Source of the DNA: Yoonia sp.
GTDB taxonomy: Bacteria > Pseudomonadota > Alphaproteobacteria > Rhodobacterales > Rhodobacteraceae
Length of the DNA stretch: 14,049 nucleotides
Assembly: GCA_020627605.1 (NCBI GenBank)
Contig: JAHDGO010000027.1
Span: 1-14,049 of the forward strand
Direction of reading: 5' to 3'
Shown here: in pieces, positions 1 to 14,049 of the stretch
Layout: the number at the start of each line of letters is the position of its first letter
Numbering within the stretch: the first letter of the stretch is position 1
Translations under genes and position numbers: made by a program
Notes under the pieces: model-generated
The model's database searches: none
Told to the model about the DNA's origin: nothing
The model's input: the letters and a program-made list of their open reading frames with translations, nothing else

Positions 1-1
1 G

Positions 2-829: not shown

Positions 830-843
830 GCCAGCACGCGGGC

Positions 844-1101
844 CTACATGCCCAGGGCGGCCTTATACATATCCAGTACCGCCTCTTCCTCTGCCAGATC
901 GTCAGCGTCGCGCTTGCGCATCGCCACGATCTTGCGCAGCACCTTGACGTCATAACCGCGACCCTTGGCCTCTGCCATTACCTCTTTCTGGGCGTCGGCG
1001 ATGTCCTTCTTTTCGGCCTCAAGCCGCTCATACCGTTCCACGAACTGGCGCAGTTCTTGCCCGGCGACGGTGTTGGCGGTGTCGGTCACGGAATCGTTCA
1101 T
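844..1101 (-). CDS. gapR: GapR-family (DUF2312) nucleoid-associated protein
   Basis: This 85-residue protein is almost entirely one DUF2312 domain: residues 16 to 84 contain LRQFVERYERLEAEKKDI, then AEAKGRGYDVKVLRKIVAMRK and an acidic C-terminal helix, the family signature. Caulobacter GapR, of similar size, is a coiled-coil protein that clamps overtwisted AT-rich DNA ahead of replication and transcription and stimulates type II topoisomerases. The charged helix pattern seen here fits that role. The ATG at 1101 is preceded by AGGAGA at good spacing, which supports the start. It is monocistronic, convergent with the gene on its left and divergent from the small membrane protein on its right. 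Family assignment is secure; the chromosomal role is by analogy. Confidence 0.93.
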   Translation of the reverse strand: MNDSVTDTANTVAGQELRQFVERYERLEAEKKDIADAQKEVMAEAKGRGYDVKVLRKIVAMRKRDADDLAEEEAVLDMYKAALGM

Positions 1102-1210
1102 GGCGGCTCTCCTGATACATTTTCGCTTTCCCTAGCTCTTGCCCTGCCCCCCTGCAACCCTTGCGCTGGCGGGCCGGTCAGGCTACCTGCCCGCAAAGCA
1201 AGGAGTGGGC

Positions 1211-1426
1211 ATGGATATTGTCATCTGGATCGGTGCGGCGCTGTCGGCGATTGGCCTGTGTGGCATCGTCTACAGCATTGTCGCGGTGACGCGCGCGAAA
1301 CGCGCCAAGCTGCCTGATGAGGCGTTGCGCGCCAAGGTATCCGCCATCCTGCCGATTAATCTGATCGCGCTCTTCATCTCTATGATTGGTCTGATGGCCG
1401 TGATTATCGGCGTTATGCTGGGCTAG
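1211..1426 (+). CDS. Small two-helix inner-membrane protein, function unknown
   Basis: I place the start at the ATG at 1211, giving 71 residues, because AGGAG lies at 1201-1205. The longer frame from 1139 would add a proline-rich, low-complexity leader with no ribosome site. Two hydrophobic helices are visible, about residues 3-25 and 47-70, joined by a basic loop (RAKRAKLPDEALRAK) that should face the cytoplasm, leaving both termini outside. No enzyme motif is present and I do not recognise a named family; similar short proteins are common as hypotheticals in Rhodobacteraceae. Its TAG (1424-1426) overlaps the stop codon of the convergent kinase gene. Confidence 0.7.
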   Translation: MDIVIWIGAALSAIGLCGIVYSIVAVTRAKRAKLPDEALRAKVSAILPINLIALFISMIGLMAVIIGVMLG

Positions 1427-2469
1427 TCCGCCCCGTCGCGTATCACGTCAACGGCCATCGCTGCCAGCACCGGCACCGCGGCCCCGTATTTGCGCGCCAT
1501 CACAGGGTTGGAGGCATTGCCCGCCGCGGCACGCGCAGCAACGCCTGCCAGAATGGCGGCCAGCCGGAAGAATGCAAAGACAAGGTAGAATGGCCAGTCG
1601 CTGACCGCACCCAACCCGCGCCGCTCTGCATAGGCACGCACATAATCCGCCTCTGACGGCAGGCCGAGGGCCGCACGATCCACACCGGCCAGCCCGCGCA
1701 TATCCCCCTGATTGGGCAGCCGCCACTGCATGCATTGATAGGCCAGATCAGCCATCGGATGGCCAAGGGTCGACAGTTCCCAATCCAGCACGCCCGCGAC
1801 GGCGGGCCTGTTGGGGGCGATCATGATATTGTCCAACCGCCAGTCACCATGGACGAGTGACACTTGCCCATCATCTGCTGGCATGTGCCGGGCCAGCCAT
1901 GCCATGATCTCTGCCATCTCTGCGCTGGGTGCCGTGACAGAGGCCCTGTACTGACTGCTCCACCGTTCCAACTGACGCGCGAAATAATTGCCCGGCTTGC
2001 CGTAATCCGACAGACCCACTGCAACGACATCCACGTCATGCAAAGCGGCAAGCGTCGTGTTCATCGCATCATAGATTGCGGTCCGTTCCTCACGGTTGCT
2101 CTCTGGCAGCGCCGGGTCCCAGAATATGCGCCCCGGCAGATAACGCATGATGAAAAAGGCGCGCTTGCTGGGCGAGGTTTCAGCCTCTGCCAGATGCAGC
2201 ACGTCAGGCACCGGCACGGCGCTGTGCCGAAGCGCGTGCATCACGCGAAACTCCCGCTCAACCGCATGGGCAGACGGCAACAGCTTGCCCGGTGGTTTGC
2301 TGCGCAGCACGTATTTGCCGCTGTCGGCAGTCAGCAGGTAGGTCGGGTTGGATTGTCCGGTGCCGAATTTCGTCACCTCTTGCAAAGTGCCAAAATCATC
2401 CAGCACGGTCGACAGATAGCCGTCCAAGGCGGCAAGGCTCATCCCCAGATTTTCAGCGGCATCCTGCAT
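1423..2469 (-). CDS. APH-fold phosphotransferase, probable 4-hydroxyacyl-CoA kinase (ACAD10/11 kinase-domain type)
   Basis: The protein is a cytoplasmic aminoglycoside-phosphotransferase-fold kinase of 348 residues from the chosen start. Visible motifs are the glycine-rich FGTGQSNPTYLL near residues 36-47, the nucleotide-site strand YVLRSKPPGKLLPSAHAVERE (about 53-73), the catalytic HGDWRLDN (HGD 207-209, N214) and the metal-binding LDWE (D229). The RSKPPGKLLPSAHAVERE block is typical of the kinase half of ACAD10/ACAD11 and of Pseudomonas LvaA, not of antibiotic kinases. Such kinases phosphorylate the 4-hydroxyl of acyl-CoAs; the dehydrogenase divergent from this gene is the expected partner. 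The frame is open to an ATG at 2532, but that start would leave only 33 bp to the neighbour and adds an unfamiliar leader; ATGs at 2469 and 2442 are both reasonable and I prefer 2469. Substrate is inferred. Confidence 0.85.
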   Translation of the reverse strand: MQDAAENLGMSLAALDGYLSTVLDDFGTLQEVTKFGTGQSNPTYLLTADSGKYVLRSKPPGKLLPSAHAVEREFRVMHALRHSAVPVPDVLHLAEAETSPSKRAFFIMRYLPGRIFWDPALPESNREERTAIYDAMNTTLAALHDVDVVAVGLSDYGKPGNYFARQLERWSSQYRASVTAPSAEMAEIMAWLARHMPADDGQVSLVHGDWRLDNIMIAPNRPAVAGVLDWELSTLGHPMADLAYQCMQWRLPNQGDMRGLAGVDRAALGLPSEADYVRAYAERRGLGAVSDWPFYLVFAFFRLAAILAGVAARAAAGNASNPVMARKYGAAVPVLAAMAVDVIRDGAD

Positions 2470-2512
2470 GCACCCATTAGCGCCGCTGGCAAGCGACAGC
2501 GCAACCCATTGA

Positions 2513-2565
2513 TTGACACCCCGCCCCTGCAATGCACGATGTGGTCAGATTGCGGGAGGACAACC
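2513..2565 (+). promoter_or_regulatory. Candidate promoter and ribosome site for the acyl-CoA dehydrogenase
   Basis: A perfect TTGACA is at 2513-2518. The hexamer 17 bp downstream (ACGATG) is a poor -10 match, so the promoter call is weak. GGGAGGA at 2554-2560 is a clear ribosome site for the ATG at 2566. The space between the two divergent starts is about 96 bp if the kinase begins at 2469, so promoters in both directions must fit here. Confidence 0.3.
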
Positions 2566-3795
2566 ATGGATCTGGGACAGACAGAGCGGCTGCAGCCGGT
2601 GCTTGCAGCCGTCAAGGCGATGATCGCGGATGAGATCGCGCCGATGGACGCGCCCTTTCTGGCCGAGGTTGATGTCGGCAATCGTTGGGAAATTACAGCC
2701 CGCCAAACCGAAATTCTTGAAGGTTTGAAAGCAAAGGCGAAGGAGAGGGGCCTGTGGAATTTCTGGGACACTTTCCGCGACGGGCCGCAGCTGAACACGG
2801 TCGAATACGCCTATCTGGCCGAGGAAATGGGCAAGTCGCATCTGGCGGCCGAGGTCTTTAACTGCAACGCGCCCGATACCGGCAACATGGAGGTTTTCGC
2901 CCGCTACGGCACCGCGGACATGAAAACGCGCTGGCTGACGCCGCTGATGGACGGCACGATCCGGTCAGCCTATCTGATGACGGAACCTGACGTAGCCAGC
3001 TCTGACGCGACGAATATCGCGATGCGCTGCGTGCGTGATGGCGATGACTATGTGCTGAATGGCCAGAAATGGTGGGCGACCGGCGCCGGTGATCCGCGCT
3101 GTGCGGTCCATATCGTCATGGTGCGCACGGCCCATGACGGGCCAAAACATCAACAACATTCGATGATTGTCGTGCCTGCCGATACCCCCGGCATCACCAA
3201 GCTGCGCGCGATGGAGGTCTACGGCCATGATGACGCCCCCCATGGTCATATGCATTTCCGCTATGACGATGTGCGCGTGCCTGCCGAAAACCTGCTGCTG
3301 GGCGAAGGGCGCGGGTTTGAAATTGCGCAAGGCCGCCTTGGGCCGGGGCGTATTCACCACTGTATGCGGGCGATCGGACAGGCCGAGAAGGCGCTTGAGA
3401 TGCTATGTGAACGCGCGGTTGCGCGAGAGGCGTTTGGCAAACCGTTGGCGCAACTGGGAGAGAATTTCGACCTGATCGCCAAAGCGCGGATGGACATCGA
3501 ACAGGCCCGGCTGTTGTGCCTGAAAGCGGCGTGGATGATGGACCAGGGCGACGCCCGCGCGGCGGCCCCGTGGATCAGCCAGATCAAGGTTGTTGCACCG
3601 CAGGTGGCGCTGGACATCACGGATATGGCCATTCAGATGCACGGCGCTGCCGGTGTGTCACAGGATACCCCACTTGCCCGGCAATGGACCCATCTGCGGA
3701 CCTTGCGGCTGGCCGACGGGCCTGACGCCGTGCACCGCAGGCAGGTCGCCCGAGCCGAGCTGAAACCCTACATATCAGGGCAGAACAGCTCGTAG
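2566..3795 (+). CDS. Acyl-CoA dehydrogenase family protein, ACAD10/11-like
   Basis: The 409-residue flavoprotein has the usual ACAD order: an N-terminal helical domain (about 1-135), a middle beta domain with the flavin-binding AYLMTEPDVASSDATN (135-150) and GQKWWATGAGD (167-177), and a C-terminal helical domain with RAVAREAFGKPLAQ and MHGAAGVSQDTPLA. The segment RLADGPDAVHRR (381-392) is the signature of the ACAD11 and LvaC group; the position held by the catalytic Glu of medium-chain enzymes is Asp384. In that group the enzyme acts with an APH-type kinase to convert 4-hydroxyacyl-CoAs, via a 4-phospho intermediate, into forms that enter beta-oxidation. The frame runs far upstream without a stop, but ATG 2566 follows GGGAGGA and starts a normal ACAD N-terminus. 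Its 3' end overlaps the convergent ArsR-family gene by 28 bp. Family is secure, substrate inferred. Confidence 0.92.
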   Translation: MDLGQTERLQPVLAAVKAMIADEIAPMDAPFLAEVDVGNRWEITARQTEILEGLKAKAKERGLWNFWDTFRDGPQLNTVEYAYLAEEMGKSHLAAEVFNCNAPDTGNMEVFARYGTADMKTRWLTPLMDGTIRSAYLMTEPDVASSDATNIAMRCVRDGDDYVLNGQKWWATGAGDPRCAVHIVMVRTAHDGPKHQQHSMIVVPADTPGITKLRAMEVYGHDDAPHGHMHFRYDDVRVPAENLLLGEGRGFEIAQGRLGPGRIHHCMRAIGQAEKALEMLCERAVAREAFGKPLAQLGENFDLIAKARMDIEQARLLCLKAAWMMDQGDARAAAPWISQIKVVAPQVALDITDMAIQMHGAAGVSQDTPLARQWTHLRTLRLADGPDAVHRRQVARAELKPYISGQNSS

Positions 3796-4085
3796 ATTCT
3801 TTCCAGAAGCGGGCGCACCCGCGGATCGGAGAGCCGGTAACGCATGCTGCGCCCCTCGCGGTCGCATGCGACCAGACCCTCTGCCCGCAGCCGCAGCAAT
3901 TGGCCTGAGACGTAGGACTGGCTGGCGCCTGTTGCGGCTTCCAGTTCCCCCACTGTTTTGTCGCCGGGCACCAGGGCGCAGAGAATGCGCAGGCGTCCGG
4001 GGTTGCCGAGCGATTTCAGCAGCTCTGCCGCTTCGCCTGCCGCGGCCTCCATCGGATCGACCAGTGTGTCCATGCGTTCATTCAT
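3768..4085 (-). CDS. ArsR/SmtB-family repressor, probable persulfide sensor of the SqrR/BigR type
   Basis: The 105-residue protein is a single winged-helix ArsR domain: LLKSLGNPGRLRILCAL (22-38), recognition helix ASQSYVSGQLLRLRAEGLV (54-72) and wing REGRSMRYRLSD (77-87). Three cysteines are present: C36, C74 and C102. C36 and C102 are 66 residues apart, the same spacing as Cys41/Cys107 of Rhodobacter SqrR and Cys42/Cys108 of BigR, which form a polysulfide bridge that releases DNA. This, with the divergent dioxygenase, permease and sulfur-transferase operon, identifies the likely role: repressor of sulfane-sulfur detoxification, relieved by persulfides. A large palindrome lies just upstream and probably controls both directions. 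The 3' end overlaps the convergent dehydrogenase gene by 28 bp. The sensing chemistry is inferred by homology. Confidence 0.9.
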   Translation of the reverse strand: MNERMDTLVDPMEAAAGEAAELLKSLGNPGRLRILCALVPGDKTVGELEAATGASQSYVSGQLLRLRAEGLVACDREGRSMRYRLSDPRVRPLLERIYELFCPDM

Positions 4086-4098
4086 GCTTGCATCCTAT

Positions 4099-4136
4099 CA
4101 AATACATTTTGATATTCCAATATTGAAATGTATTTG
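4099..4136. promoter_or_regulatory. 38-bp near-perfect palindrome, probable operator of the ArsR-family persulfide sensor
   Basis: The outer arms CAAATACATTT and AAATGTATTTG are perfect inverted repeats of 11 bp, and inner arms ATATT/AATAT are also symmetric; only three symmetric position pairs in the whole 38 bp fail to match. The site is AT-rich in a GC-rich genome, lies 13 bp from the repressor start, and overlaps the -35 of the divergent operon. It is long enough for two repressor dimers or one dimer with flanking contacts. Assignment to this repressor is inferred from position and from the known practice of BigR/SqrR binding AT-rich inverted repeats at their own operon. Confidence 0.8.
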
Positions 4137-4150
4137 AAAGTGACTATCCT
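4123..4150 (+). promoter_or_regulatory. Candidate promoter of the persulfide dioxygenase operon
   Basis: TTGAAA at 4123-4128 and TATCCT at 4145-4150 are separated by 16 bp. The -35 falls inside the right half of the palindrome, so a repressor bound there would block polymerase. The ribosome site AAGGAG at 4159-4164 follows. Confidence 0.5.
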
Positions 4151-4171
4151 GACCGGTGAAGGAGATTCGTG

Positions 4172-5035
4172 ATGACCCCCGATGTGAAAGCTTTCTTCGA
4201 CGAGGCCACCAACACCGTTTCATATGTCGTCCGCGCGCCAGAAGGACGCACCTGCGCCATCATCGACTCCGTCCTCGACTACGATCAGGCGGCCGGGCGT
4301 ACCGATACGACCTCTGCCGATAAGATCATTGACTGGGTGCAAGCTGAAGGACTGACCTGCGCATGGATCCTCGAAAGCCATGTGCATGCCGACCACCTGT
4401 CTGCTGCGCCCTATTTGCAGGAACGTTTGGGCGGCAAGATCGGGATCGGATCGCATATCACCGTCGTGCAGAACACCTTTGGCAAAGTATTCAACGAAGG
4501 CACAGCGTTTCAGCGCGACGGGTCACAGTTTGATGCGCTGTTTGAGGATGGCGACAGTTTTCACATCGGACAGATGCGCGCCGATGTGATGCATACGCCG
4601 GGTCATACCCCTGCCTGCCTGACCTATGTCATTGGTGATGCGGCGTTTGTGGGTGATACGCTGTTCATGCCGGATTTCGGCACGGCCCGCTGTGATTTCC
4701 CCGGCGGGTCCGCCGAAGATCTCTATGCCTCGATCCAGAAAATCCTGTCACTGCCAGATGAAACGCGCATTTTCGTCGGGCATGACTACAAGGCGCCGGG
4801 CCGCGACGAATTCGCCTGGGAAACGACCGTCGGCGAACAAAAGGCCCTGAACGTCCACATCGGCGAAGGCCGCCCCTTGGAAGAGTTTGTCAGCATGCGC
4901 CAAGCGCGTGATGCCAAGCTGGGGATGCCGCGCCTGATCCTGCCGTCGTTGCAAACCAATATGCGCGCGGGGCACATGCCAGAACCCGAAGACAACGGAC
5001 AACGCTATTTCAAAGTGCCGATCAACGGTCTTTGA
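4172..5035 (+). CDS. MBL-fold persulfide dioxygenase (ETHE1-like)
   Basis: The 287-residue protein has the metallo-beta-lactamase fold with the metal motif HVHADH (70-75), HTPGH (H145) and GDTLF (D162), then DFGTARCDFPGGSAEDLY and FVGHDY (H204), as in ETHE1-type persulfide dioxygenases. These mononuclear-iron enzymes oxidise glutathione persulfide to sulfite and glutathione in the cytoplasm. Compared with human ETHE1 it has an extra C-terminal stretch (about 225-287, GRPLEEFVSMRQARDAKL), as in the Blh/BigR-operon group. I use ATG 4172, seven bases after AAGGAG; the GTG at 4169 adds one residue and is less well spaced. It is first in a plus-strand operon with two sulfur permease halves and a DUF442 transferase, under the ArsR-type repressor on the other side of the palindrome. 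Confidence 0.92.
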   Translation: MTPDVKAFFDEATNTVSYVVRAPEGRTCAIIDSVLDYDQAAGRTDTTSADKIIDWVQAEGLTCAWILESHVHADHLSAAPYLQERLGGKIGIGSHITVVQNTFGKVFNEGTAFQRDGSQFDALFEDGDSFHIGQMRADVMHTPGHTPACLTYVIGDAAFVGDTLFMPDFGTARCDFPGGSAEDLYASIQKILSLPDETRIFVGHDYKAPGRDEFAWETTVGEQKALNVHIGEGRPLEEFVSMRQARDAKLGMPRLILPSLQTNMRAGHMPEPEDNGQRYFKVPINGL

Positions 5036-5059
5036 TCACCACTCACGGAGCAAGACATC

Positions 5060-5485
5060 ATGCCAATCGACTGGATCATGGGGCTCGCCGGCGGCGGGCT
5101 CATCGGGACGGCTGCGGCCATTTACCTGTTGGTGAACGGGCAGATCATGGGGGCGTCCGGTATTGTCGGCGGGCTGGTCGATGGCAGTGGACGCCATGAC
5201 TGGGCGGAACGCGCGGCATTGATCGCAGGGCTGGTGCTGGTGCCTGCCGTGGCCGCCTTTGCCATGGGCGGTGCGCAAACCCATCTGACGTCGAACTGGG
5301 CGGTCATCATCATCGCCGGGCTGCTGGTCGGTGTTGGCACCCGTGTCGCCAATGGCTGCACGTCAGGACATGGGGTCTGCGGCATATCGCGTTTGTCCTT
5401 GCGCGGTATCGTCGCGACGGCCTTTTATATCGGTGCCGGTGGTCTGACGGTGGTGATCTTCAAACATCTCTTGGGGGTGATCTGA
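5060..5485 (+). CDS. YeeE/YedE-family permease half, first subunit (PmpA-like)
   Basis: The 141-residue membrane protein has about four hydrophobic helices (roughly 5-25, 52-70, 78-97, 112-138). The motif GVGTRVANGCTSGHGVCG (91-108) carries the conserved cysteine C100 with C107 close by, the hallmark of the YeeE/YedE (TsuA) group. Family members move sulfur species such as thiosulfate or persulfide sulfur across the inner membrane by relaying them between cysteines. Short half-length members occur in pairs, and the next gene is the other half. GGAG at 5047-5050 serves the ATG at 5060, 24 bp after the dioxygenase stop, and the stop TGA overlaps the ATG of the next gene by one base, implying coupled translation. 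Substrate and direction of transport are not settled by sequence. Confidence 0.9.
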   Translation: MPIDWIMGLAGGGLIGTAAAIYLLVNGQIMGASGIVGGLVDGSGRHDWAERAALIAGLVLVPAVAAFAMGGAQTHLTSNWAVIIIAGLLVGVGTRVANGCTSGHGVCGISRLSLRGIVATAFYIGAGGLTVVIFKHLLGVI

Positions 5486-5916
5486 TGCGGGCGGCTGTTT
5501 CCCTTCTGGTGGGCGCGCTCTTTGGGCTTGGATTGCTGATCTCTGGCATGACGGACACGACCAAGGTGCAGGGGTGGCTCGATATTTTTGGCGACTGGGA
5601 CCCGACGCTGGCCTTTGTGATGGGCGGTGCGATCGTGCCGATGGCGATTGCGTGGCGGGTGACACATGGGCGCAAGCCTGTGCTGGCCGCAAGCTTCCCC
5701 CCGCCGCCAGAGCCGCGGTTGGGGCGAAAGCTGGTGGTCGGTTCGACACTCTTCGGGATGGGTTGGGGGCTGTCAGGCCTATGCCCTGGGCCTGCCATGG
5801 CCTCGCTGAGTTTTGGTGGTACGGGCGGGTGGCTGTTCCTGCTGGCAATGCTGATCGGCATGGGCTTGGCGCCGGGTTTGCGCAACCGGCTGGACGCCTC
5901 GCCACAGCCGGTCTAA
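5485..5916 (+). CDS. YeeE/YedE-family permease half, second subunit (PmpB-like)
   Basis: The 143-residue membrane protein starts at an ATG that shares its first base with the stop of the preceding half (TGATG). It has about four hydrophobic helices, an early GLLISGMTD motif (16-24) and GWGLSGLCPGPA (93-104) with conserved C100, the second cysteine motif of YeeE/YedE proteins. The loop at about 62-82 is proline-rich and basic and should be cytoplasmic. Full-length YeeE-type transporters contain both cysteine motifs in one chain; here they are divided between this protein and its neighbour, so the two probably assemble into one channel. The pair is a standard part of BigR-type operons, where it is thought to move sulfite or other sulfur species linked to the dioxygenase. 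Confidence 0.9.
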   Translation: MRAAVSLLVGALFGLGLLISGMTDTTKVQGWLDIFGDWDPTLAFVMGGAIVPMAIAWRVTHGRKPVLAASFPPPPEPRLGRKLVVGSTLFGMGWGLSGLCPGPAMASLSFGGTGGWLFLLAMLIGMGLAPGLRNRLDASPQPV

Positions 5917-5926
5917 ACCTGCGGCC

Positions 5927-6349
5927 ATGGATATTCGCCAGATCAGCCCGACCTACGCCGTTTCCCCGCAAATCGCGGTAGAGGATATTCCCTCCATCGC
6001 CGAGGCCGGGTTCACGACCATTATCTGCAACCGGCCTGATGCGGAAATCCCGCCCAGCCACCATGCAGCAGCGATTGAGGCGGCAGCAAAGGCGGCAGGG
6101 CTGACCTTTGTGATCAATCCGGTCACACATCAGGGGCTGAATATGGACATGGTGCAGTTGCAAAAGACAACGCTGGACCAGTCCGGTGGCCCGGTGCTGG
6201 CGTATTGCGCCTCTGGCACGCGCTCGTCCATCGTCTGGTCGCTGGGTCAGGCCGGCGAGCTGCCAACGGATGAAATCATCGCCGCCACAGCCGCCGCCGG
6301 GTATGATCTGGCGGGGATGCGCCCGCAGCTTGACCATCTGGCAGGCTAG
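5927..6349 (+). CDS. DUF442/TIGR01244-family sulfur transferase (stand-alone Blh N-terminal domain type)
   Basis: The 140-residue protein begins MDIRQISPTYAVSPQI and contains EAGFTTIICNRPDAE (26-40) and the active-site loop LAYCASGTRS (91-100), a C-x4-R loop (C94, R99) of the phosphatase/rhodanese superfamily. This is the DUF442 (TIGR01244) family. In Xylella and Agrobacterium the same domain is fused in front of the persulfide dioxygenase in the Blh protein, where it acts as a sulfur transferase supplying glutathione persulfide. Here it is a separate gene at the end of the operon, 10 bp after the second permease half and with no strong ribosome site, so translation is probably coupled. Its TAG overlaps the stop of the convergent FliM-like gene. 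The family is clear; the acceptor is inferred. Confidence 0.9.
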   Translation: MDIRQISPTYAVSPQIAVEDIPSIAEAGFTTIICNRPDAEIPPSHHAAAIEAAAKAAGLTFVINPVTHQGLNMDMVQLQKTTLDQSGGPVLAYCASGTRSSIVWSLGQAGELPTDEIIAATAAAGYDLAGMRPQLDHLAG

Positions 6350-7437
6350 TCGTCAGGCAGATCATCCATCGCCATCGTGGCAAAGCCGATGTCCAGATCG
6401 GGTGAAAGGGTTTCCTCAGGCATCTGATCAGCCTCAAGGGCCGTGTCATCCGACACGTCCTTGGTATCGTCGGCGATTGACCACCCCTCCAAGGTCTCTG
6501 TTTCAGGCAATAGCATTTCACTTTCTGGCGGGGGACTGCCTGCATCAAGTTCTGTCAGTTGCGGGGCGGGCGGTGGTTCCAGCCGCAGCGCGCGCATGCC
6601 GCCCATCTGCCCCAGCTTTGCCTGCGCCACAGTCTGACCATCTGCGGCAAGCAACCTGACGGATGACACGGTGCAACCCGTCAACGGCAAGACATCCCCC
6701 ACCTTCAGTCTGCGCAATGCCGCCAGTGGCAGCGTGACCCTATGCAGCAGGGCCCGCAGCCCGGCGGGAGCCTCCATCACGCTGTCTTGCAGCGCGCTGT
6801 GCCAGTCCACTGGCGATGGTTTTGGCAGCCCCTGCCCCACTGGGATTTCAATGACTGGCAGGACAATCTGCAAGACGCCCTGCCGGTCAGCGACGCCGAA
6901 ATCCACGCTCATCTGCACAGTGCGAAAGCGCACGTCTGCCAGCATCAGGCCAGCAGTCCGCAAATCCGGTATCTTTGCATCCGCCAGCACATCATCACCC
7001 CATCCGTCCAGTGAGGTACCAACCACTGTCGCCGGAAACGCCCCCAGAAACGCCTGCAATAGTGGCAAGGACAGGAACGCATCGGTTGCGGTTGGCCGTC
7101 TTTCAACGGCGGGTTTCGGGATCAGTGCGCCGATGGTCTGCATTTCGACGATCGCTGTGCGCAACTCTTGATCAATTGCCGCCAAACCAACCAGCCCATC
7201 GCGGCGCAGCAGTTCAACCAGCAACAGGTCATCATCCAGCGCGGCCAGGGTTTCATCCAGCGTGCCTTCGGCCTCTGCCACGCTGGTGACGGTCAGCACC
7301 AATCCGATGCTCTCATGCGCGGCCTTGGTCAGGGCCAGCCTGACCGCGCGGGACGAAGTCAGCGGATTATCCGCCACGGGATCGCCCTGCGGGCGGATCA
7401 TCCGCCGCAAAAGTGTCGCCTGGGTGCTGATTGCCAT
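6346..7437 (-). CDS. FliM/FliN-like protein with a SpoA (surface presentation of antigens) C-terminal domain
   Basis: From the chosen ATG at 7437 the protein is 363 residues. The N-terminal two thirds contains AVRLALTKAAHESIGLVLTV, resembling the FliM middle domain. At about residues 225-287 the sequence LPLAALRRLKVGDVLPLTG, then ADGQTVAQAKLGQMGGMRALRL, fits a SpoA domain, the C-ring building block of FliM and FliN. The usual FliM N-terminal CheY-binding peptide (LSQDEIDALL-like) is absent, and after SpoA there is an acidic tail of about 75 residues. Rhodobacterales are known to encode divergent FliM proteins of this kind, and a motor-switch role is likely. No other flagellar gene is in the window. 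An ATG 33 bases upstream is possible; neither has a strong ribosome site. The gene follows the histidine kinase gene by 48 bp on the same strand and might share its transcript. Confidence 0.75.
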   Translation of the reverse strand: MAISTQATLLRRMIRPQGDPVADNPLTSSRAVRLALTKAAHESIGLVLTVTSVAEAEGTLDETLAALDDDLLLVELLRRDGLVGLAAIDQELRTAIVEMQTIGALIPKPAVERRPTATDAFLSLPLLQAFLGAFPATVVGTSLDGWGDDVLADAKIPDLRTAGLMLADVRFRTVQMSVDFGVADRQGVLQIVLPVIEIPVGQGLPKPSPVDWHSALQDSVMEAPAGLRALLHRVTLPLAALRRLKVGDVLPLTGCTVSSVRLLAADGQTVAQAKLGQMGGMRALRLEPPPAPQLTELDAGSPPPESEMLLPETETLEGWSIADDTKDVSDDTALEADQMPEETLSPDLDIGFATMAMDDLPDD

Positions 7438-7485
7438 GGGCCTGCTAGTTGGTTGCGCGCAAGCCTGCATATAACGCCAAAGAGA

Positions 7486-10182
7486 TTACGTTTCGGCTAA
7501 CACCGCCGCCGCCGTGGTGTCCGGCAACGTCACACGGAAGGCCGCGCCGCTGGCCTCTGGCAGATAGGCGATATCGCCGCCCAGCCGGTGCATCACCTCG
7601 CGGCTGATGGCCAGCCCCAGACCTGCGCCGCCCGCCTTTGCCTCATCCGACAGGCGCGAGAACTTTTCGAAGATCAGCGATTGATGCTCCGCCGCGATGC
7701 CGCTGCCATTGTCGATGAAATCCACAACATGGCGGCCCTTGGCCTGACCCACCCGGATCGTCAGCTGTGGCGCCTTTGCGTCGCAGTACTTGCGCGCGTT
7801 TGAGATCAGGTTGATGAAGACCTGCGCCAACCTGTCCAGATCGGCGGTGATCAGGATGCCCTCATCCGAAGATTGTCGCACGATCTCCAGAACTCCGTCA
7901 TGTAGGCCAGCAGCCCTGATCGAGCGGTCCAGCAGATCAGCAAGCGTGCCGGTCTGTTCATGCAGCTCTACCTGACCGTTTTCCAGCACCGCAAGGTCCA
8001 GCAGATCATCCAGCAATCGCGTCAGGCGCACGGCCTCATCATGAATGATCCCGGCATAGCGCCCCTGTTCTTCACCGTTCGTGCCACCCTCGCGCAAGAT
8101 CTCGGAAAATGACCGGATTGACGTCATAGGTGTGCGCAATTCGTGGCTGATCTGGCTGAGGAATGCATCTTTCTGGATCGAAAGCGCGGTCAGTTTTTCG
8201 TTGGCATCACGTAACGCACGGGCGGTGCGTTCCTGCTCTTTCGACTTCGCTTCCAGCCGGTTGGAATACTCGAGAATTTGCGCCGCCTCATCCGCCACCG
8301 CGATCAGGTCTTCCACCGATACGCTGCTGCCGCCGATCAATTGTCCGACCATGGCATGGGCGGTTGCGGCCCCGACGGAGCCTGACAGCTCTCTCTCCAG
8401 CCGTTCGATGAATTCCAGTGTGACCTCTGGCAGATATCCCACCTTGCCCTGACGCTGGGCTTCCTGCTCAAAAATGGCCTGCGCCTCGGCGCTGCCCATG
8501 ATCCGCTGTGCCATGATCAGCAGATCCTCTGCCCCGGTCGAAGCATTGGTCCAGCTTGGCGCGGCGGTGGAATGATCAAACACATTGACGAATTGCGCGC
8601 CTTGCAGACGCTCCAGCGGGCCCGGAAAGCTGAAGAGCGACCCGCAGAGGAACATCGCCGCATTCAGCAGCATCGACCACATGATGCCATGGACCAGCGG
8701 ATCTAGCCCGGTAATGCCGAACAGCGCCTGTGGGCGCAGCCAGTGCAGGCCCCATGGTCCGCTGTCCATCACCGATTGGCTGATCACCGCATCCACACCA
8801 AAACTGGGCAAGAACAAGGTCCACATCCAGATGAGCAGCCCGGTCATCAACCCCAAACCAGCCCCGACACCGGTGGCCCCGCGCCAGAAAATACCGCCGA
8901 TCATGGCGGGCAGAATTTGCACAACGCCGGTGAAAGAAATCAGACCAATCGCGGCCAGCGCTGTGCCGCCACCAGACAGACGGTAATAGAGAAACCCGAA
9001 GGTCAGGATCGCCGCAATGGAAATCCGTCGTGACAGCAGGATCACATGGCGCACATCGCCTGACATGGTGGCCTGTTGCGTCGCCTGCAGCCGCAGCCAG
9101 ATCGGCACGAAGATGTTGTTGGACACCATCGTCGCCAGCGCCAGTGTCGCCACGATCACCATGGACGTGGCCGACGACAACCCGCCCAGAAATGACAAAA
9201 CCGCCAGCCCCCCCTGCCCCTGATCCAGCGGCACCGTCAGCACAAAGAGATCAGGGTTGCTGCCTGCCGGCAAAAGCTCCAGCCCGATCACGGCGATGGG
9301 CACGACGAAAAGGCTCATCAGCAGCAGGTAAAGCGGGAAGGCCCAGCTGGCGACATGCAGGTGCTGTTCGTCGGCATTCTCGACCACCATGACCTGAAAC
9401 ATGCGCGGCAGGCACAGAAAGGCGGCGGCAGAAAGAAAGATCAGACCGACCCAGCGTCCGCTGTCCTGCTCCCAAAGCTGGATCTCGGTTGCATCGATAC
9501 GGTCGAGCATCTGCGGCACGCCGCCGGCAATACCCCAGACCACAAAACCGCCCACGGCAACCAGGGCCAGCAATTTCACCACGGCCTCGACCGCGATGGC
9601 CATGACAATGCCGTGGTGCCGTTCATTTGCGTCCAGATTGCGGGTGCCGAAGATCACGGTGAATACCGCCAGACCAATGGTCACCCAGATGGCGGTACGG
9701 TTGAAGTCGGTCTGCTGCCAGAACACGCCTTCAGCCTGCGCAAAGACGGCAAAGGACAGTGTCACCGATTGCAGCTGCAGCGCGATATAGGGGGTGCCTG
9801 CAATGACAGAGATCAGCGTCACCATCATGCCAAGCTGGGTCGACTTGCCGAAGCGGGACGAGATGAGGTCAGCGATGGATGTGATCCGCTGCGCACGGCC
9901 AATCCGCACCAGACGCCGCAAGATCCACCACCAGCCGACCATGACAAGCGTGGGACCCAGGTAGATCGTCACAAACTCCAGCCCAGAGCGCGCGGCATAG
10001 CCGACCGCGCCGTAAAACGTCCATGCGGTGCAATAGATACTGAGCGACAGCGTATAGATCAGCGGCGAGTGCAGCCAGTTGGCATGCCCCCGCGCCGCGC
10101 GCCGCTCTGCCAGAAAGGCCACCGCAAACAGCAGCAGCACATAGGCCAGTGCGATGACAATCAGGGCATTGAACGTCGTCAT
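7486..10182 (-). CDS. Symporter-type sensor histidine kinase (SSS domain plus HisKA/HATPase), CrbS/CbrA-like
   Basis: The 898-residue protein has two halves. Residues 5-520 form a sodium/solute symporter (SLC5) fold with about 12-13 helices, including LSIYCTAWTFYGAVGYAARSG, GTPYIALQLQSV and FLGGLSSATSMVIVATLALA. A soluble linker (521-645) leads to a short coiled coil (ENRLEAK to NEKLTALS region, about 640-668) and then the kinase: H-box SQISHELRTPMTS with H680, N-box NLISNARKY (N795), DFIDNGSGIA (D824) and GGAGLGLAIS (851-860). All key ATP-site residues are present, so it should be active. No PAS domain is evident. Known relatives are CrbS, which controls acetate use, and CbrA, linked to histidine and carbon balance; the ligand here is unknown but a short-chain acid fits the neighbouring acyl regulator. 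Its ATG overlaps the stop of the upstream small membrane gene by 4 bp. Confidence 0.93.
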   Translation of the reverse strand: MTTFNALIVIALAYVLLLFAVAFLAERRAARGHANWLHSPLIYTLSLSIYCTAWTFYGAVGYAARSGLEFVTIYLGPTLVMVGWWWILRRLVRIGRAQRITSIADLISSRFGKSTQLGMMVTLISVIAGTPYIALQLQSVTLSFAVFAQAEGVFWQQTDFNRTAIWVTIGLAVFTVIFGTRNLDANERHHGIVMAIAVEAVVKLLALVAVGGFVVWGIAGGVPQMLDRIDATEIQLWEQDSGRWVGLIFLSAAAFLCLPRMFQVMVVENADEQHLHVASWAFPLYLLLMSLFVVPIAVIGLELLPAGSNPDLFVLTVPLDQGQGGLAVLSFLGGLSSATSMVIVATLALATMVSNNIFVPIWLRLQATQQATMSGDVRHVILLSRRISIAAILTFGFLYYRLSGGGTALAAIGLISFTGVVQILPAMIGGIFWRGATGVGAGLGLMTGLLIWMWTLFLPSFGVDAVISQSVMDSGPWGLHWLRPQALFGITGLDPLVHGIMWSMLLNAAMFLCGSLFSFPGPLERLQGAQFVNVFDHSTAAPSWTNASTGAEDLLIMAQRIMGSAEAQAIFEQEAQRQGKVGYLPEVTLEFIERLERELSGSVGAATAHAMVGQLIGGSSVSVEDLIAVADEAAQILEYSNRLEAKSKEQERTARALRDANEKLTALSIQKDAFLSQISHELRTPMTSIRSFSEILREGGTNGEEQGRYAGIIHDEAVRLTRLLDDLLDLAVLENGQVELHEQTGTLADLLDRSIRAAGLHDGVLEIVRQSSDEGILITADLDRLAQVFINLISNARKYCDAKAPQLTIRVGQAKGRHVVDFIDNGSGIAAEHQSLIFEKFSRLSDEAKAGGAGLGLAISREVMHRLGGDIAYLPEASGAAFRVTLPDTTAAAVLAET

Positions 10183-10463
10183 GGCTGTTTGCGCGTCTCT
10201 GGCGGCGGATCATGCGGGATCACACGCATCCACCGGCTCAGCCCCGCACTCAGCAGGATCAGCAACAGCCAGACACCAAAGATGTACATCAGACCGGCAC
10301 TCCTCACCGCATCCTCTTGCGAGGCAGAAGCGACAGGCCATGCCAATGGCAGCATCCACAGGATCAGGCCAAGACAGGGCACCAGTCGTGCGGCGTCACG
10401 CAGCCGACGTTGCCTATAACTGGCGCGCTGCAGAAACACCGAGGTTTTCGGTGTCCGGCTCAT
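10179..10463 (-). CDS. Small two-helix membrane protein between receiver and symporter-kinase
   Basis: The 94-residue protein has a basic N-terminus (ASYRQRRLRDAARL), helix 1 at about 26-44 (LVPCLGLILWMLPLAWP), an acidic external loop SQEDAVRS and helix 2 at about 57-76 (GLMYIFGVWLLLILLSAGL), then a polar proline-rich tail. It overlaps the receiver gene by 4 bp upstream and the kinase gene by 4 bp downstream (ATGA at both), so the three are translated together. Size, topology and position just before a symporter-fold protein recall the DUF4212/DUF485-type small subunits that precede SSS symporters. I see this as a resemblance in layout, not a proven family match. It could be an accessory subunit of the sensor's symporter half. 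Confidence 0.8.
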   Translation of the reverse strand: MSRTPKTSVFLQRASYRQRRLRDAARLVPCLGLILWMLPLAWPVASASQEDAVRSAGLMYIFGVWLLLILLSAGLSRWMRVIPHDPPPETRKQP

Positions 10464-10828
10464 GCGCCGATCAGGTCACGGACGTGATCACGCACCTCGG
10501 TATTCGAAAAAGGCTTGGTCATGAAAAGGTTCGCACCAAGTCGCATCGCAAGTTCGCGATCCTTGTCCTGACCTCGTGCAGTCAGCATCATGACGGGGAT
10601 GGATTTGGTCGTATCATCACCACGCAAATCGCGCAGGATGTCAAAACCGCTGCGGCCGGGCAGCATGACATCAAGGATGATCATATCGGGCGGCATCGCG
10701 CGCACCTTGTCGACGGCGGTGGTGCCATCTTCATGAATATGAACAGTCCAGCCGTCACGCGACAGGATAAAGCTGATCGCCTCGATGATATTTGGTTCAT
10801 CTTCGATCAGAAGGACCCGTTTGCCCAC
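10460..10828 (-). CDS. Single-domain (receiver-only) response regulator
   Basis: From a GTG at 10828 the protein is 122 residues, exactly one CheY-like receiver and no output domain. Visible are the acidic pocket IEDEP (E9, D10), phospho-acceptor D53 in ILDVMLPG, T83 in MLTARG and K105 in TKPF. The track of the frame also allows an ATG at 10882, but that ATG lies within the -10 of a good promoter, while the GTG is preceded by GAAAGG at about seven bases. The receiver is the likely target of the symporter-kinase encoded two genes downstream; with no DNA-binding domain it must act on another protein. The XRE regulator encoded just upstream, with its HisKA-like segment, is the obvious candidate partner. 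Confidence 0.92.
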   Translation of the reverse strand: MGKRVLLIEDEPNIIEAISFILSRDGWTVHIHEDGTTAVDKVRAMPPDMIILDVMLPGRSGFDILRDLRGDDTTKSIPVMMLTARGQDKDRELAMRLGANLFMTKPFSNTEVRDHVRDLIGA

Positions 10829-10881
10829 GTCTTTGCCTTTCAAAATCCGCAGCCCATCCGGCCGCGCGTTCCCCGGTCGCA

Positions 10882-10910
10882 ACTATCACGAGAAACCGCC
10901 GATGTGTCAA
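10882..10910 (-). promoter_or_regulatory. Promoter for the receiver / membrane protein / kinase operon
   Basis: On the minus strand a perfect TTGACA (plus positions 10905-10910) is followed after exactly 17 bp by GATAGT (10882-10887), a four-of-six match to TATAAT. Transcription would begin near 10875, 45-50 bases before the GTG start of the receiver. This gives the three overlapping genes their own promoter, in addition to any read-through from the XRE gene, which ends at 10927. Confidence 0.6.
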
Positions 10911-10926
10911 AGCCACGATGCAGGCC

Positions 10927-12222
10927 TTAGCCCGGTGCGACACCGGTCAAGGCAGGTTCACGGCGGCTTTCGCAGCCCATGCGCGGGCAGATGCGGCAAG
11001 AGATGCCGATCGGCAGTGGCGCTGGCCCGTGATCGGGGGGGTGTGCCACGACAATCATTGTGCTGGTTGCCGTCGGTGGCGCGCCCAGATGCGGCAGGGC
11101 CTGCAGGTTTGACACAGCAAAACATCGCAGACGGGTTTCTTCACCGTCAGGCAGCACAACATCCTGCTGAAACGGCTGTTCAGGCCGTGCAAGTGCCGAA
11201 AACACCGGCCAGAGCGGACAGGTCCCGCCAAAACGCGGCAAGGCAAAACCCGCAATCTGTTTGAAGACCTGCAATGTGCCAGAGGCATCGCATTGCGCCA
11301 GACCGATGGGCGGATGTCCTTCACCTGCAGGCAGGCTGGCCAGGCGGCGCAGCACCTGATCGAACCGTGCGCCTGTCTGCAGCGCGATCTGCGACGGGTC
11401 ATAGCCAGTGTCGCGCGCCAGTTTTGCAAAACGGCCCATCGGCAAGGCGGCCACATCCGCCGCATAACGGGTCAGATATGGCAATAGTATGGACGTTGCC
11501 GCCGGGCCCAGACCCGCCGCTGCGCAGATGCTCTGGGGTGTTTCTCTCTCATCCTCCAACGCAGTGACATGAAACCCTGTCTGCGCCAGCCACGCCCAGA
11601 CCTGTTCGGTCGGGGCAGCGGCGCCCGCCAGATCAGCCTCTGGCGCGGCCAGCAAGGCGACAATCGCCTCGCCACTGGCGGCCAGTCGCAGGCTGTCATC
11701 ATGGATATTCTGGTGGAACCGCTTTTGCCAATCAGCGTCGAGGTCTTCCGGCCCCACCAGAATAGCGGCGGTCGATCTGATGCCACTGACAGCGGTGATC
11801 ACGTCATGCAGCGCGCCTGACAGTTGCGGGTCATGCGCCATACGGTCGCCCAGCGCCTGCACCTGCGCCTGCAGCGCCGCGATCCGCTGGGCCTGATCGG
11901 CGATCAACGTCGCCCAGCCGGGATAGCGCGCGGCAAGCTCTTCCGCGCGAGCGACCTCGACATCCTTGCCGAACACACTGGCCGCCGTGCGCATACCGTC
12001 GAGCGTTTCGGTATCAGCACCTTCGATCAGCAGCGCCGGCTCTACCTCCAGCACGCGGGCGATATTGGTGAGGAGTTTGCCACCGATTCTGCGGCGATTG
12101 TGTTCAATCAGGTTCAAATAAGACGCTGAGATGCCGACTGTTTCTGCAACCGCCGCCTGTCGCAGGCCACGATCCAGTCGCCTTTCGCGAATGCGGGAAC
12201 CAGCAAGTTTCTGTCCAACCAT
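10927..12222 (-). CDS. XRE-family short-chain fatty acyl regulator (ScfR/RamB/PrpR type) with a HisKA-like insert
   Basis: The 431-residue protein starts with an XRE HTH (about 7-63; RQAAVAETVGISASYLNLIEHN). The C-terminal part (about 235-431) resembles the DUF955/DUF2083 region of short-chain acyl regulators, with LARDTGYDPSQIALQTGARFDQVLRRL (268-294), GGTCPLWPVF (C335) and the terminal CRICPRMGC (C409, C412, C417). In mycobacterial PrpR comparable cysteines hold an iron-sulfur cluster and short-chain acyl-CoAs are the ligands; the same is plausible here. The zinc-protease HExxH of active DUF955 proteins is not visible. Between them, residues 132-192 (ALHDVITAVSGIRSTAAIL, then HQNIHDDSLRLAASG) align with a histidine-kinase DHp domain. 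The gene is divergent from the binding-protein gene and upstream of the receiver/kinase operon. Ligand and targets are inferred. Confidence 0.88.
   Translation of the reverse strand: MVGQKLAGSRIRERRLDRGLRQAAVAETVGISASYLNLIEHNRRRIGGKLLTNIARVLEVEPALLIEGADTETLDGMRTAASVFGKDVEVARAEELAARYPGWATLIADQAQRIAALQAQVQALGDRMAHDPQLSGALHDVITAVSGIRSTAAILVGPEDLDADWQKRFHQNIHDDSLRLAASGEAIVALLAAPEADLAGAAAPTEQVWAWLAQTGFHVTALEDERETPQSICAAAGLGPAATSILLPYLTRYAADVAALPMGRFAKLARDTGYDPSQIALQTGARFDQVLRRLASLPAGEGHPPIGLAQCDASGTLQVFKQIAGFALPRFGGTCPLWPVFSALARPEQPFQQDVVLPDGEETRLRCFAVSNLQALPHLGAPPTATSTMIVVAHPPDHGPAPLPIGISCRICPRMGCESRREPALTGVAPG
11653..11829 (-). other. HisKA/DHp-like segment inside the XRE regulator
   Basis: Residues 132-190 of the XRE protein align with the DHp domain of the kinase in the same cluster. 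The XRE stretch LHDVITAVSGIRSTAAIL faces SHELRTPMTSIRSFSEIL in the kinase, with matching H, T, I, R, S, I and L and D for E; with a one-residue shift, NIHDDSLRL faces IIHDEAVRL. H139 sits at the phospho-acceptor position, but the E/D-L-R-T-P motif is only partly kept. No ATPase domain follows. It could be a dimerisation helix pair, a docking site for the receiver, or a phosphotransfer site. Confidence 0.6.
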
Positions 12223-12292
12223 CGATTTTACCCCGGCATTTCAGTGGCTTTCTGCATCCGCGAGAGAACCAATTTACTAACTTGACCAAAAC

Positions 12293-12314
12293 TTTGTACA
12301 CAAATTTACAAATT
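12293..12314. repeat. Operator-like inverted and direct repeats (candidate XRE regulator site)
   Basis: TTTGTACACAAA has perfect 5-bp arms TTTGT/ACAAA. It overlaps the first of two ACAAATT copies spaced 8 bp start to start. TTTGT/ACAAA-rich sites are reminiscent of RamB/PrpR-type boxes (TTTGCAAA), and the adjacent gene encodes a member of that family, so autoregulation and control of the transporter are both possible. The link is inferred from position. Confidence 0.45.
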
Positions 12315-12350
12315 CGTCCACCCATGCCAATGCCATGTTGCCGCAAAAGC

Positions 12351-12381
12351 GCCACACACGTCAGAGTAGCGGTGTGTTGGC
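12351..12381 (+). other. Leader hairpin before the binding-protein gene
   Basis: GCCACACAC (12351-12359) can pair with GTGTGTTGGC (12372-12381) as a 9-bp stem with one bulged T. A shorter stem GCAGG/CCTGC (12380-12384 with 12392-12396) could form just downstream and competes for bases 12380-12381. Neither hides the ribosome site. No known riboswitch class is recognised. Confidence 0.4.
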
Positions 12382-12426
12382 AGGTCACGCGCCTGCGACC
12401 AATAAAAATCTCTAGGGAGGATAAGA

Positions 12427-13773
12427 ATGTCCAAATCAAACTTTTCGCGTCGCGGCGTCCTGAAGACTGGCATGGTGGCCAGCGCTGGCCTCGCCCTGCC
12501 GCAGTACCTGCGTGCGGATGGCCATACCGGCTTTACCAATGCGCCAGGTGACAGCGAGGTCATCCTTGGCTTCAACGTACCACAGACAGGCCCCTACGCT
12601 GACGAGGGTGCTGACGAACTGCGCGCCTATGAGCTGGCTGTCGAGCACCTCAACGGTGGCGGCGACGGCGGCATGCTGGGCACGTTCTCTTCTCAGGCGC
12701 TGGACGGTGCAGGTATCCTTGGTCGCGAAGTAAAGTATGTGACTGGTGACACGCAGACCAAATCTGATGCGGCCCGTGCATCGGCCCGTTCGATGATCGA
12801 AAAAGACGGCGCCATCATGATCACAGGTGGTTCGTCATCCGGCGTTGCCGTGGCGGTTCAGGCGCTGTGCCAAGAGGCCGGCGTTATCTTCATGGCTGGT
12901 CTGACACACTCCAACGACACCACGGGTAAAGACAAGCGGGCCAACGGTTTCCGCCACTTCTTCAACTCCTACATGTCCGGTGCGGCGCTGGCCCCTGTGC
13001 TTGCTGCCAACTATGGTACAGACCGCAAGGCCTATCACCTGACCGCTGACTACAACTGGGGTTACACCACAGAAGAAGCGGTGAAGACGTCGACCGAAGC
13101 CATGGGTTGGGAAACTGTGAACGCTGTGAAAACACCGCTGACACAGACCGACTTCTCTTCCTATATCGCGCCTGTTCTGAACTCTGGCGCCGACGTTCTG
13201 GTTCTGAACCACTACGGCGGTAACATGGTCAACTCGCTGACCAACGCGGTTCAGTTTGGTCTGCGCGAGGCGCAAGCCAACGGCAAGAACTTCGAAATCG
13301 TCGTGCCGCTCTACTCGCGTCTGATGGCACGTGGTGCTGGCGCGAACGTTGCCGGTATCTTCGGGTCCACCAACTGGCACTGGTCGCTGCAGGATGCAGG
13401 CTCGCAAGCCTTCACACGGTCCTTCGGCACCAAGTACGGCTTCCCACCATCGCAGGCGGCGCACACATGCTACGTGCAGACCCTGCTTTATGCAGATGCC
13501 GTCACACGCGCCGGTTCGTTCAACCCATGCGCGGTTGCCGAAGCCCTCGAAGATTTCGAGTTCGACGGTCTGGGCAACGGCCCAACACTCTACCGTGGCG
13601 ACGACCACCAGTGCTTCAAGGACGTGCTGGTTGTGAAGGGTAAAGAGAACCCAGACAACGAGTTCGACCTTCTCGAAATCGTTGAAGTGACACCTGTTGA
13701 CCAGGTGACATACGCACCAGATCACCCGCAGTTTGCAGGTGGTGCATTGGGTACATGTAACCCAGGCGCATAA
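12427..13773 (+). CDS. Branched-chain-amino-acid-type ABC transporter substrate-binding protein, Tat-exported
   Basis: The 448-residue protein has a twin-arginine signal peptide: SRRGVLK (7-13), a hydrophobic stretch to about residue 24 and a probable cleavage after LRA (30). The mature part is a type I periplasmic binding protein (Peripla_BP_6, LivK-like), with EVILGFNVPQTGPYADEG (44-61), GGSSSGVAVAVQALCQEAGV and ADYNWGYTTEEAVK. The next gene is a LivH-type permease, so it feeds a five-component ABC importer. Members of this family take amino acids, amides, urea and other small solutes; the substrate cannot be read from sequence. Location next to a short-chain acyl regulator suggests a small carboxylate or amide. 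AGGGAGG lies six bases before the ATG. Codon choice (GGT, GTT, AAC, TTC, CTG) is more biased than in neighbours, as expected of an abundant binding protein. Confidence 0.9.
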   Translation: MSKSNFSRRGVLKTGMVASAGLALPQYLRADGHTGFTNAPGDSEVILGFNVPQTGPYADEGADELRAYELAVEHLNGGGDGGMLGTFSSQALDGAGILGREVKYVTGDTQTKSDAARASARSMIEKDGAIMITGGSSSGVAVAVQALCQEAGVIFMAGLTHSNDTTGKDKRANGFRHFFNSYMSGAALAPVLAANYGTDRKAYHLTADYNWGYTTEEAVKTSTEAMGWETVNAVKTPLTQTDFSSYIAPVLNSGADVLVLNHYGGNMVNSLTNAVQFGLREAQANGKNFEIVVPLYSRLMARGAGANVAGIFGSTNWHWSLQDAGSQAFTRSFGTKYGFPPSQAAHTCYVQTLLYADAVTRAGSFNPCAVAEALEDFEFDGLGNGPTLYRGDDHQCFKDVLVVKGKENPDNEFDLLEIVEVTPVDQVTYAPDHPQFAGGALGTCNPGA

Positions 13774-13784
13774 GCCAAACATTG

Positions 13785-13812
13785 GTTCAGGCCGCGAAAG
13801 CGCGGCCTGAAC
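13785..13812 (+). terminator. Strong hairpin after the binding-protein gene (no T-run)
   Basis: GTTCAGGCCGCG (13785-13790 plus 13791-13796) pairs perfectly with CGCGGCCTGAAC (13801-13812) around an AAAG loop, a 12-bp GC-rich stem that begins 11 bases after the TAA. No T-tract follows, so it is more likely an mRNA-stabilising or partial-termination structure than a full terminator. That would favour high binding-protein levels over the permease genes. Confidence 0.75.
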
Positions 13813-13823
13813 ACCGCTCACAT

Positions 13824-13846
13824 ACTGCGCCCTTTCGGGCAGCGGT
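13824..13846 (+). other. Second hairpin in the binding-protein/permease gap
   Basis: ACTGCGCCC and GGGCAGCGGT (with one bulged A) can form a stem of about nine pairs, one a G-T pair, around a TTTC loop. It has no T-run. It lies between the first hairpin and the permease ribosome site. Confidence 0.45.
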
Positions 13847-13895
13847 CTGACGGCGCGCATCCTGCGCTTTCTCATAACCGATCAGAGGTCACCTC

Positions 13896-14049
13896 ATGGA
13901 CCAGTTCATTCTTCAGATTCTTAATGGGCTTGATAAGGGCTCTGCCTATGCGCTGATTGCGCTGGGGCTGACACTCATCTTCGGCACGCTTGGGGTTGTG
14001 AACTTTGCCCACGGCGCGCTGTTCATGCTGGGTGCCTTTGTTGCTGTCA
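13896..14049 (+). CDS. LivH-type branched-chain amino acid ABC transporter permease, 3'-truncated by the window edge
   Basis: Fifty-one residues are visible, starting MDQFILQILNGLDKGSAYAL and continuing through LIFGTLGVVNFAHGALFMLGAF. The GVVNFAHGA motif is the signature of LivH-family inner-membrane permeases. AGAGGT at 13884-13889 is the ribosome site. The gene follows the binding-protein gene by 122 bp containing two hairpins. The rest of the importer (LivM, LivG and LivF homologues) should follow beyond the window. Confidence 0.92.
   Translation, partial: MDQFILQILNGLDKGSAYALIALGLTLIFGTLGVVNFAHGALFMLGAFVAV

Follow-up and report, generated by a model that had tools for sequence, protein, structure and literature searches.

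Why does a transcription factor of the XRE/ScfR type carry in its middle a segment that resembles the DHp domain of the sensor histidine kinase encoded in its own operon, and what could such a segment do beside a receiver that has no output domain? The question is posed by a stretch of 14,049 nucleotides from Yoonia sp. (Rhodobacteraceae; assembly GCA_020627605.1, contig JAHDGO010000027.1, positions 1 to 14,049), here called the window, for which a first-pass annotation had noted the resemblance and suggested a phosphorelay or docking path from a symporter-kinase via the receiver to the DNA-binding regulator. The reading favored here, to which we assign a probability of roughly 60%, is that the kinase signals through the bare receiver to the DHp of the regulator, where this input is merged with acyl-CoA/[4Fe-4S] sensing in an ScfR protein that has captured a DHp domain.

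The operon is read on the reverse strand. Its SLC5-type sensor histidine kinase of 898 residues (7486..10182, −) was recognized by Pfam (HisKA 67.8 bits, HATPase_c 81.5 bits), the DHp domain extending over 7975..8172 (−) with H680 at 8143-8145. Pfam and NCBIfam named nothing within residues 1-540; residues 5-462 matched the chain 10ed_A (E 6e-67), the match ending at 462, and the accessible part of PMC13022988 presents 10ed_A as the CbrXA SLC5-STAC structure. The next gene, taken from the list of open reading frames (ORFs), encodes a small protein of 94 residues in a CbrX-like position (10179..10463, −) and overlaps both the receiver gene and the kinase gene by 4 bp. Most related loci have this gene in the same place, flanked by those of the receiver and the kinase, and its product matched neither CbrX nor a comparable solved chain by sequence. 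The receiver ORF (10460..10882, −) was matched by Response_reg at 91.9 bits and by no second domain in Pfam, so that the description of a receiver without output domain between the two genes is borne out. Its phospho-acceptor had been given as D53, which is correct when counted from the likely GTG start at 10828, where Met stands in 74 of 79 rows, but the same residue (codon 10670-10672) is D71 in the longest ORF. This phospho-Asp, the first pocket Asp and the Lys are kept in 79/79 and 34/34 rows, including that of genome G105, whose regulator is considered below. An orphan protein with a FliM/FliN C-terminal (SPOA) domain (6346-7470, −) follows directly downstream of the kinase and has a match in 65 of 80 related loci. 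Beside the operon, positions 3768-6349 hold what we take to be an ArsR-type regulator, a metallo-beta-lactamase, two YeeE/YedE-like membrane proteins and a small phosphatase- or rhodanese-like protein, a gene set which presumably resembles sulfur-stress genes.

The regulator itself (10927..12222, −; 431 residues) was classified as an XRE/ScfR-type transcription factor with an inserted DHp cassette by Pfam (HTH_3 42.6 bits, ScfRs 57.3 bits; cut-offs 23 and 24) and by a profile match to MtPrpR (E 2e-28). The HTH_3 DNA-binding domain (residues 11-64; 12031..12192, −), whose fold matches P22 C2 and SinR, is followed by a long helix preceding the DHp, which spans residues 101-130 in the AlphaFold2 model of the whole protein (11833..11922, −) and 106-130 when only the piece was modeled. 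The DHp/HisKA-like cassette was delimited by profile comparisons, tree and model to residues 131-192 (11647..11832, −) and contains the putative phospho-acceptor H139 (codon 11806..11808, −). Behind it, a PrpR-like acyl-CoA/[4Fe-4S] domain (residues 202-425; 10948..11619, −) matches PrpR in fold and comprises C335 and C409-x2-C412-x4-C417. These four cysteines are invariant in 46 of 46 rows and align with C363 and C447-x2-C-x4-C455, the [4Fe-4S] ligands of MtPrpR as given in the available portions of PMC6765138 and PMC10370305. Judged by its sequence, the protein is an ScfR/IsaR-type regulator, predicted to respond to acyl-CoA and to carry a [4Fe-4S] cluster. The extra cassette comprises about 66 residues, and an ScfR paralogue in the same genome lacks it. 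An M78/IrrE-like middle domain was not detected by Pfam in the window protein; 10 of 10 distant relatives scanned have one at E <= 0.01, nine of them above the cut-off. Likewise, Pfam found no HATPase_c behind the DHp-like segment, in agreement with the earlier observation that no ATPase domain follows there.

The alignment proposed at the outset, of regulator residues 132-190 (11653..11829, −) with the DHp of the adjacent kinase, was reproduced in register by hhalign, which compared profiles of 81 rows for the regulator segment and 77 rows for the kinase DHp and gave 60 columns with a probability of 96.2% and a score of 49.9. H139 is paired with H680, I-R-S and I-L stand in register, and NIHDDSLRL is placed opposite IIHDEAVRL after a one-residue loop gap. 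The best of 60 column shuffles reached a score of 18.4 and the reversed profile 11.3. When the other nine HisKA domains in this genome were combined into one alignment, they gave 2.8% with the regulator segment (singly 66% at best) and 99.3% with the DHp profile of the kinase. Within the family, the likeness is therefore to the cluster's own kinase, as had been claimed, and not to HisKA at large. Taken alone, such an exclusive likeness could be explained by convergence; nevertheless, the genome searches and distant relatives described below speak against it. The HisKA match that the first-pass annotation implied was obtained from the partner kinase by hhalign and from five of ten distant relatives by Pfam, but the window segment itself reached only 13.0 bits against a gathering cut-off of 26.9. 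Its predicted structure is the expected helical hairpin, with helices at residues 132-156 and 163-192 and a mean pLDDT of 84. Foldseek yielded weak kinase matches (best E 0.06), VIA did not single out kinases by Z, with unrelated helical hairpins scoring equally high, and an hmmsearch of PDB sequences matched zero kinases.

A cassette-only profile (A2, 67 rows) searched in 337 alphaproteobacterial genomes matched at E <= 0.001 in 49 of them. In 37 genomes the match lay in an ORF of 418-599 residues (E <= 1.3e-9), the XRE class being assigned by this length, and all 30 ORFs fetched out of the 37 carry XRE/ScfR matches. ORFs of 894-1041 residues, the size of the SLC5-kinase, were hit in 44 genomes, mostly a few kilobases away; among those fetched, the ORF of G403 matched the kinase profile weakly (1e-32). 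Both classes occurred together in 35 genomes, the kinase-sized ORF only in nine and the XRE only in two, one of which (G055) has a kinase next door according to another profile, with seven more matches in ORFs of 89-731 residues left outside both classes. Since nine of the 44 genomes with a kinase-sized ORF have no XRE match at this class level, kinase and receiver need not work through the XRE regulator. Among the twelve HisKA places of its own genome, the profile hit the cluster kinase only, and in a sample of the phylum it matched in 60 of 299 genomes. Inspection of ten unclear places outside the family identified every one as a kinase with HisKA and HATPase_c; besides its own kind, the cassette profile thus finds HisKA kinases wherever checked.

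Distant regulators, collected in a set of 31 rows (two belong to family genomes, the other 29 do not), include cassettes nearer to the textbook H-box, e.g., S-T-H-E-L-R-T-F-L-T-S-I-R-S-F-S-E-I-L in L168. The five of ten scanned that passed the Pfam HisKA gathering score did so with 31.9-38.7 bits (cut-off 26.9); four of them feature the order HTH_3, HisKA, M78 and ScfRs, each above its cut-off, and the fifth (L171) has its start cut off by the contig end. In a tree of 85 domains, calculated from few columns (75) with a bootstrap not fully settled and a midpoint root, 38 XRE domains formed one clade (support 100/99) that grouped with 12 SLC5-kinase DHps (98/98), and eight other HisKA domains were placed on long branches in two places. 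Most simply, the cassette would have been inserted into an ScfR protein by a single capture from the lineage of the partner SLC5-kinase, early in the Alphaproteobacteria. On the combined evidence of profiles and tree, the cassette is a DHp/HisKA domain, and the design of a DHp-bearing regulator is widespread in Alphaproteobacteria.

The linkage of regulator, receiver and kinase is conserved. Among 80 named loci, 78 have the receiver downstream of the XRE gene and 77 the kinase, one locus (L074) ending before the kinase. For the two loci that lack both nearby, L064 and L124, the kinase is found elsewhere in the genome, beside a receiver and the small gene, and H139 is kept. For the 31 distant loci, the receiver is on the same fragment in 27 and the kinase in 26, the latter including the weak match at the contig end in L171; the five genomes without a kinase on the fragment (L176, L177, L178, L185, and L209) have it elsewhere, and a receiver gene was found in 30 of the 31 genomes. 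At L157 (G373), the XRE gene and the kinase lie nearly end to end, and a receiver match is absent from the fragment. A survey of 295 family genomes gave cassette matches (E <= 1e-10) in 260, which were counted without individual reading and of which the weakest (G248, 2.7e-12) could be of another kind; a search with the kinase's transporter portion, from which the DHp had been excluded, matched 258 genomes at E <= 1e-150. By raw counts that ignore kinship, 256 genomes have both, four the cassette only (G157, G194, G195, and G273), two the kinase only (G147 and G212) and 33 neither. Named hosts of the cassette regulator include Phaeobacter italicus and Roseovarius mucosus.

The putative phospho-acceptor is well kept, too. 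H139, whose conservation had been named as a check, is His in 148 of 149 rows (120 database proteins including that of the window, and 29 loci), in 81 of 81 rows (the 80 named loci and the window) and in 28 of 31 rows of the distant set, these sets overlapping one another. The regulators that deviate have Tyr (G105; L025 = L183) or Gln (G514 and G410, two sister genomes; L169/L170). In G105, receiver and kinase adjoin the Tyr-bearing regulator and the catalytic residues of both are kept. With Tyr or Gln at this position, phosphotransfer cannot be indispensable in these three regulators. As they occur in genomes with intact receivers, these variants form a natural comparison of docking with phosphotransfer. 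Around H139, the window regulator reads H-D-V-I-T-A and so has the acid and the Thr of the motif H-E/D-x-x-T/N-P but not its Pro; H-E-x-R-T-P is retained in 33 of 33 kinases listed. The residue at H+1 is acidic in 141 of 149 rows but in only six of 31 in the distant set, which also features Pro at H+5 in 0 of 31 rows and Thr, Ser or Asn at H+4 in all 31, with Ser in 139 of 149 rows of the larger set. According to the accessible part of PMC3510030, only the kinase activity requires the acid at H+1, and only the phosphatase activity requires the Thr/Asn. Since His and H+4 persist and the acid at H+1 is mostly gone outside the family, the regulator has kept the receiver-facing side of the domain. 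This receiver surface was not fully copied, given that H+4 is mostly Ser and that position 172 in helix 2 is Asn in the regulators instead of Ile as in the kinases.

As both DHps stem from one domain, the surfaces that they offer to the single-domain receiver, whose gene lies between theirs, can be related. The kinase would sense an external solute and phosphorylate the receiver on its Asp; the soluble receiver would then dock on the DHp of the regulator and exchange the phosphoryl group with H139. This exchange may set the geometry of the helices linking DHp and HTH, which, together with the acyl-CoA state of the C-terminal domain, would decide on binding to the TTTACA boxes described below. 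We infer a contact of the receiver with the regulator DHp that transfers either phosphate or conformation. The stronger version, in which the transcription factor has taken the DHp of its own kinase lineage, receives phosphate carried from the membrane by the bare receiver, ends the relay as a His-phosphorylated protein and reads this state together with acyl-CoA, is in our estimate evenly poised between true and false.

DivK is thought to act by docking on DivL, the DHp of which has Tyr in place of His. The main rival to phosphotransfer is accordingly docking alone, in which the phosphorylated receiver would bind the DHp-like hairpin and change the regulator allosterically, a reading we regard as unlikely though deserving attention. 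Among PDB chains, the kinase DHp is matched best by DivL, whose residue in the His column is Tyr, and at least one lineage (G105) has a Tyr-bearing regulator beside an intact receiver and kinase, with Gln in two sister genomes; however, His is among the best-kept residues of helix 1 (148/149 and 81/81), which would be needless if docking alone mattered. A second alternative, which seems improbable, makes the regulator DHp a phosphatase or phosphate sink for the receiver; bound to acyl-CoA, the regulator would then tune the kinase pathway instead of being its output. The retention of Thr, Ser or Asn at H+4 in 31 of 31 distant rows along with the loss of most of the kinase-only acid would suit this, following the accessible part of PMC3510030. 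Against it, the receiver has no output domain and only the XRE protein among the window's four operon genes has a DNA-binding domain, so that the pathway would lack an output here. Still less probable is a direct contact with the kinase, either through a mixed DHp dimer of regulator and kinase or through phosphorylation by the ATPase domain of the kinase, in the manner of RetS-GacS. The close relationship of the two DHps and the mixed RetS-GacS complex in the PDB (7n0e) are compatible with such a contact, but the loss of the H+1 acid in 25 and of the H+5 Pro in all 31 distant rows, and the presence of a receiver gene in 30 of the 31 genomes, argue against it. A chance or general helical-hairpin resemblance that serves dimerization only is hardly credible and already largely refuted: the sub-threshold Pfam score of the window segment, the 2.8% for the nine other HisKA domains, the equal VIA scores of unrelated hairpins and the kinase-free PDB search would fit it, but the shuffles fell far below, five of the ten distant relatives scanned passed the HisKA cut-off and the cassette profile, run over whole genomes, found the partner kinase class and, at ten of ten further places, HisKA kinases.

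A putative operator of two boxes, TTTACT-N26-TTTACA (12273..12310), lies between the XRE gene and a divergent gene. When 68 intergenic regions were compared, one from the window and one each from those 67 of the 80 named loci that had a usable region (13 had none), 64 showed two TTTACA boxes at a spacing of exactly 32 bp, one mismatch being allowed. In 100 first-order shuffles no spacing occurred in more than five regions, and the exact two-box pattern has a single occurrence in the genome, at this site. Binding of the boxes by the XRE protein is inferred and putative. The divergent gene (12427..13773, +; Peripla_BP_6 228.1 bits) encodes an ABC-transporter substrate-binding protein, a possible target, and all 67 loci used show the same divergent arrangement with the XRE gene. 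This binding protein weakly resembles UrtA (56.6 versus 492.75 bits).

The nearest known regulators are the ScfR/IsaR-type acyl-CoA regulators MtPrpR, RamB and PccR, which, in the available parts of PMC6765138 and PMC10370305, have in common with the window protein an XRE-type HTH, a PrpR-like C-terminal domain, the Cys plus C-x2-C-x4-C set and sites of two near-identical boxes. In contrast to them as described there, the window protein features a DHp cassette, an operon with receiver and kinase and no detectable M78/IrrE-like domain, and the boxes beside its gene are separated by 26 bp, against a spacer of 18 bp described for Paracoccus RamB (PMC10370305). The same source, in the part at hand, lists Pden_1785 of Paracoccus denitrificans as an ScfR-network protein clustered with a two-component system and left unstudied, and that part does not mention a DHp; Pden_1785 is perhaps an orthologue of the window regulator. 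With regard to the kinase, the accessible text of PMC9100948 and PMC13022988 shows that CrbS/R, CbrA/B and RpuS/R likewise rely on an SLC5-type transceptor kinase and that in cbrX-cbrA a small upstream gene overlaps the kinase gene as in the window, whereas the regulator in these systems consists of a receiver joined to a LuxR-type or sigma-54-type output (PMC9100948) and the window receiver is bare. The nearest demonstrated relay of this type that we met is that of Caulobacter MrrA, likewise a single-domain receiver that feeds a kinase-type protein (PhyK/LovK); it passes phosphate to PhyK, and PhyK works as a phosphotransferase (PMC5964349, as far as available). PhyK, however, has an ATPase domain and hands the phosphate on to PhyR according to the same portion of PMC5964349, whereas the regulator DHp here is part of a DNA-binding protein that has no ATPase domain. 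ChpT, as far as its description was accessible, also features a DHp without kinase activity, as here, but is a free phosphotransferase and not DNA-binding. The same is true of Spo0B, which in this respect is unlike the window regulator. A DHp in an ScfR protein, or this operon, was not found described in the open-access literature searched, from which subscription papers were mostly absent.

The outputs of two-component systems normally sit on receiver domains. In this operon the receiver has no output attached, and it is the DNA-binding protein that bears a partner domain related to that of the neighboring kinase. If true, the proposed path would place the output on the DHp instead of the receiver, a reversal of the usual two-component layout. 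With cassette-type matches in 260 of 295 family genomes and with named hosts at hand, the proposal is directly testable, and it would illustrate how the transfer of one domain of about 70 residues can couple a one-component metabolite sensor to a transceptor kinase.
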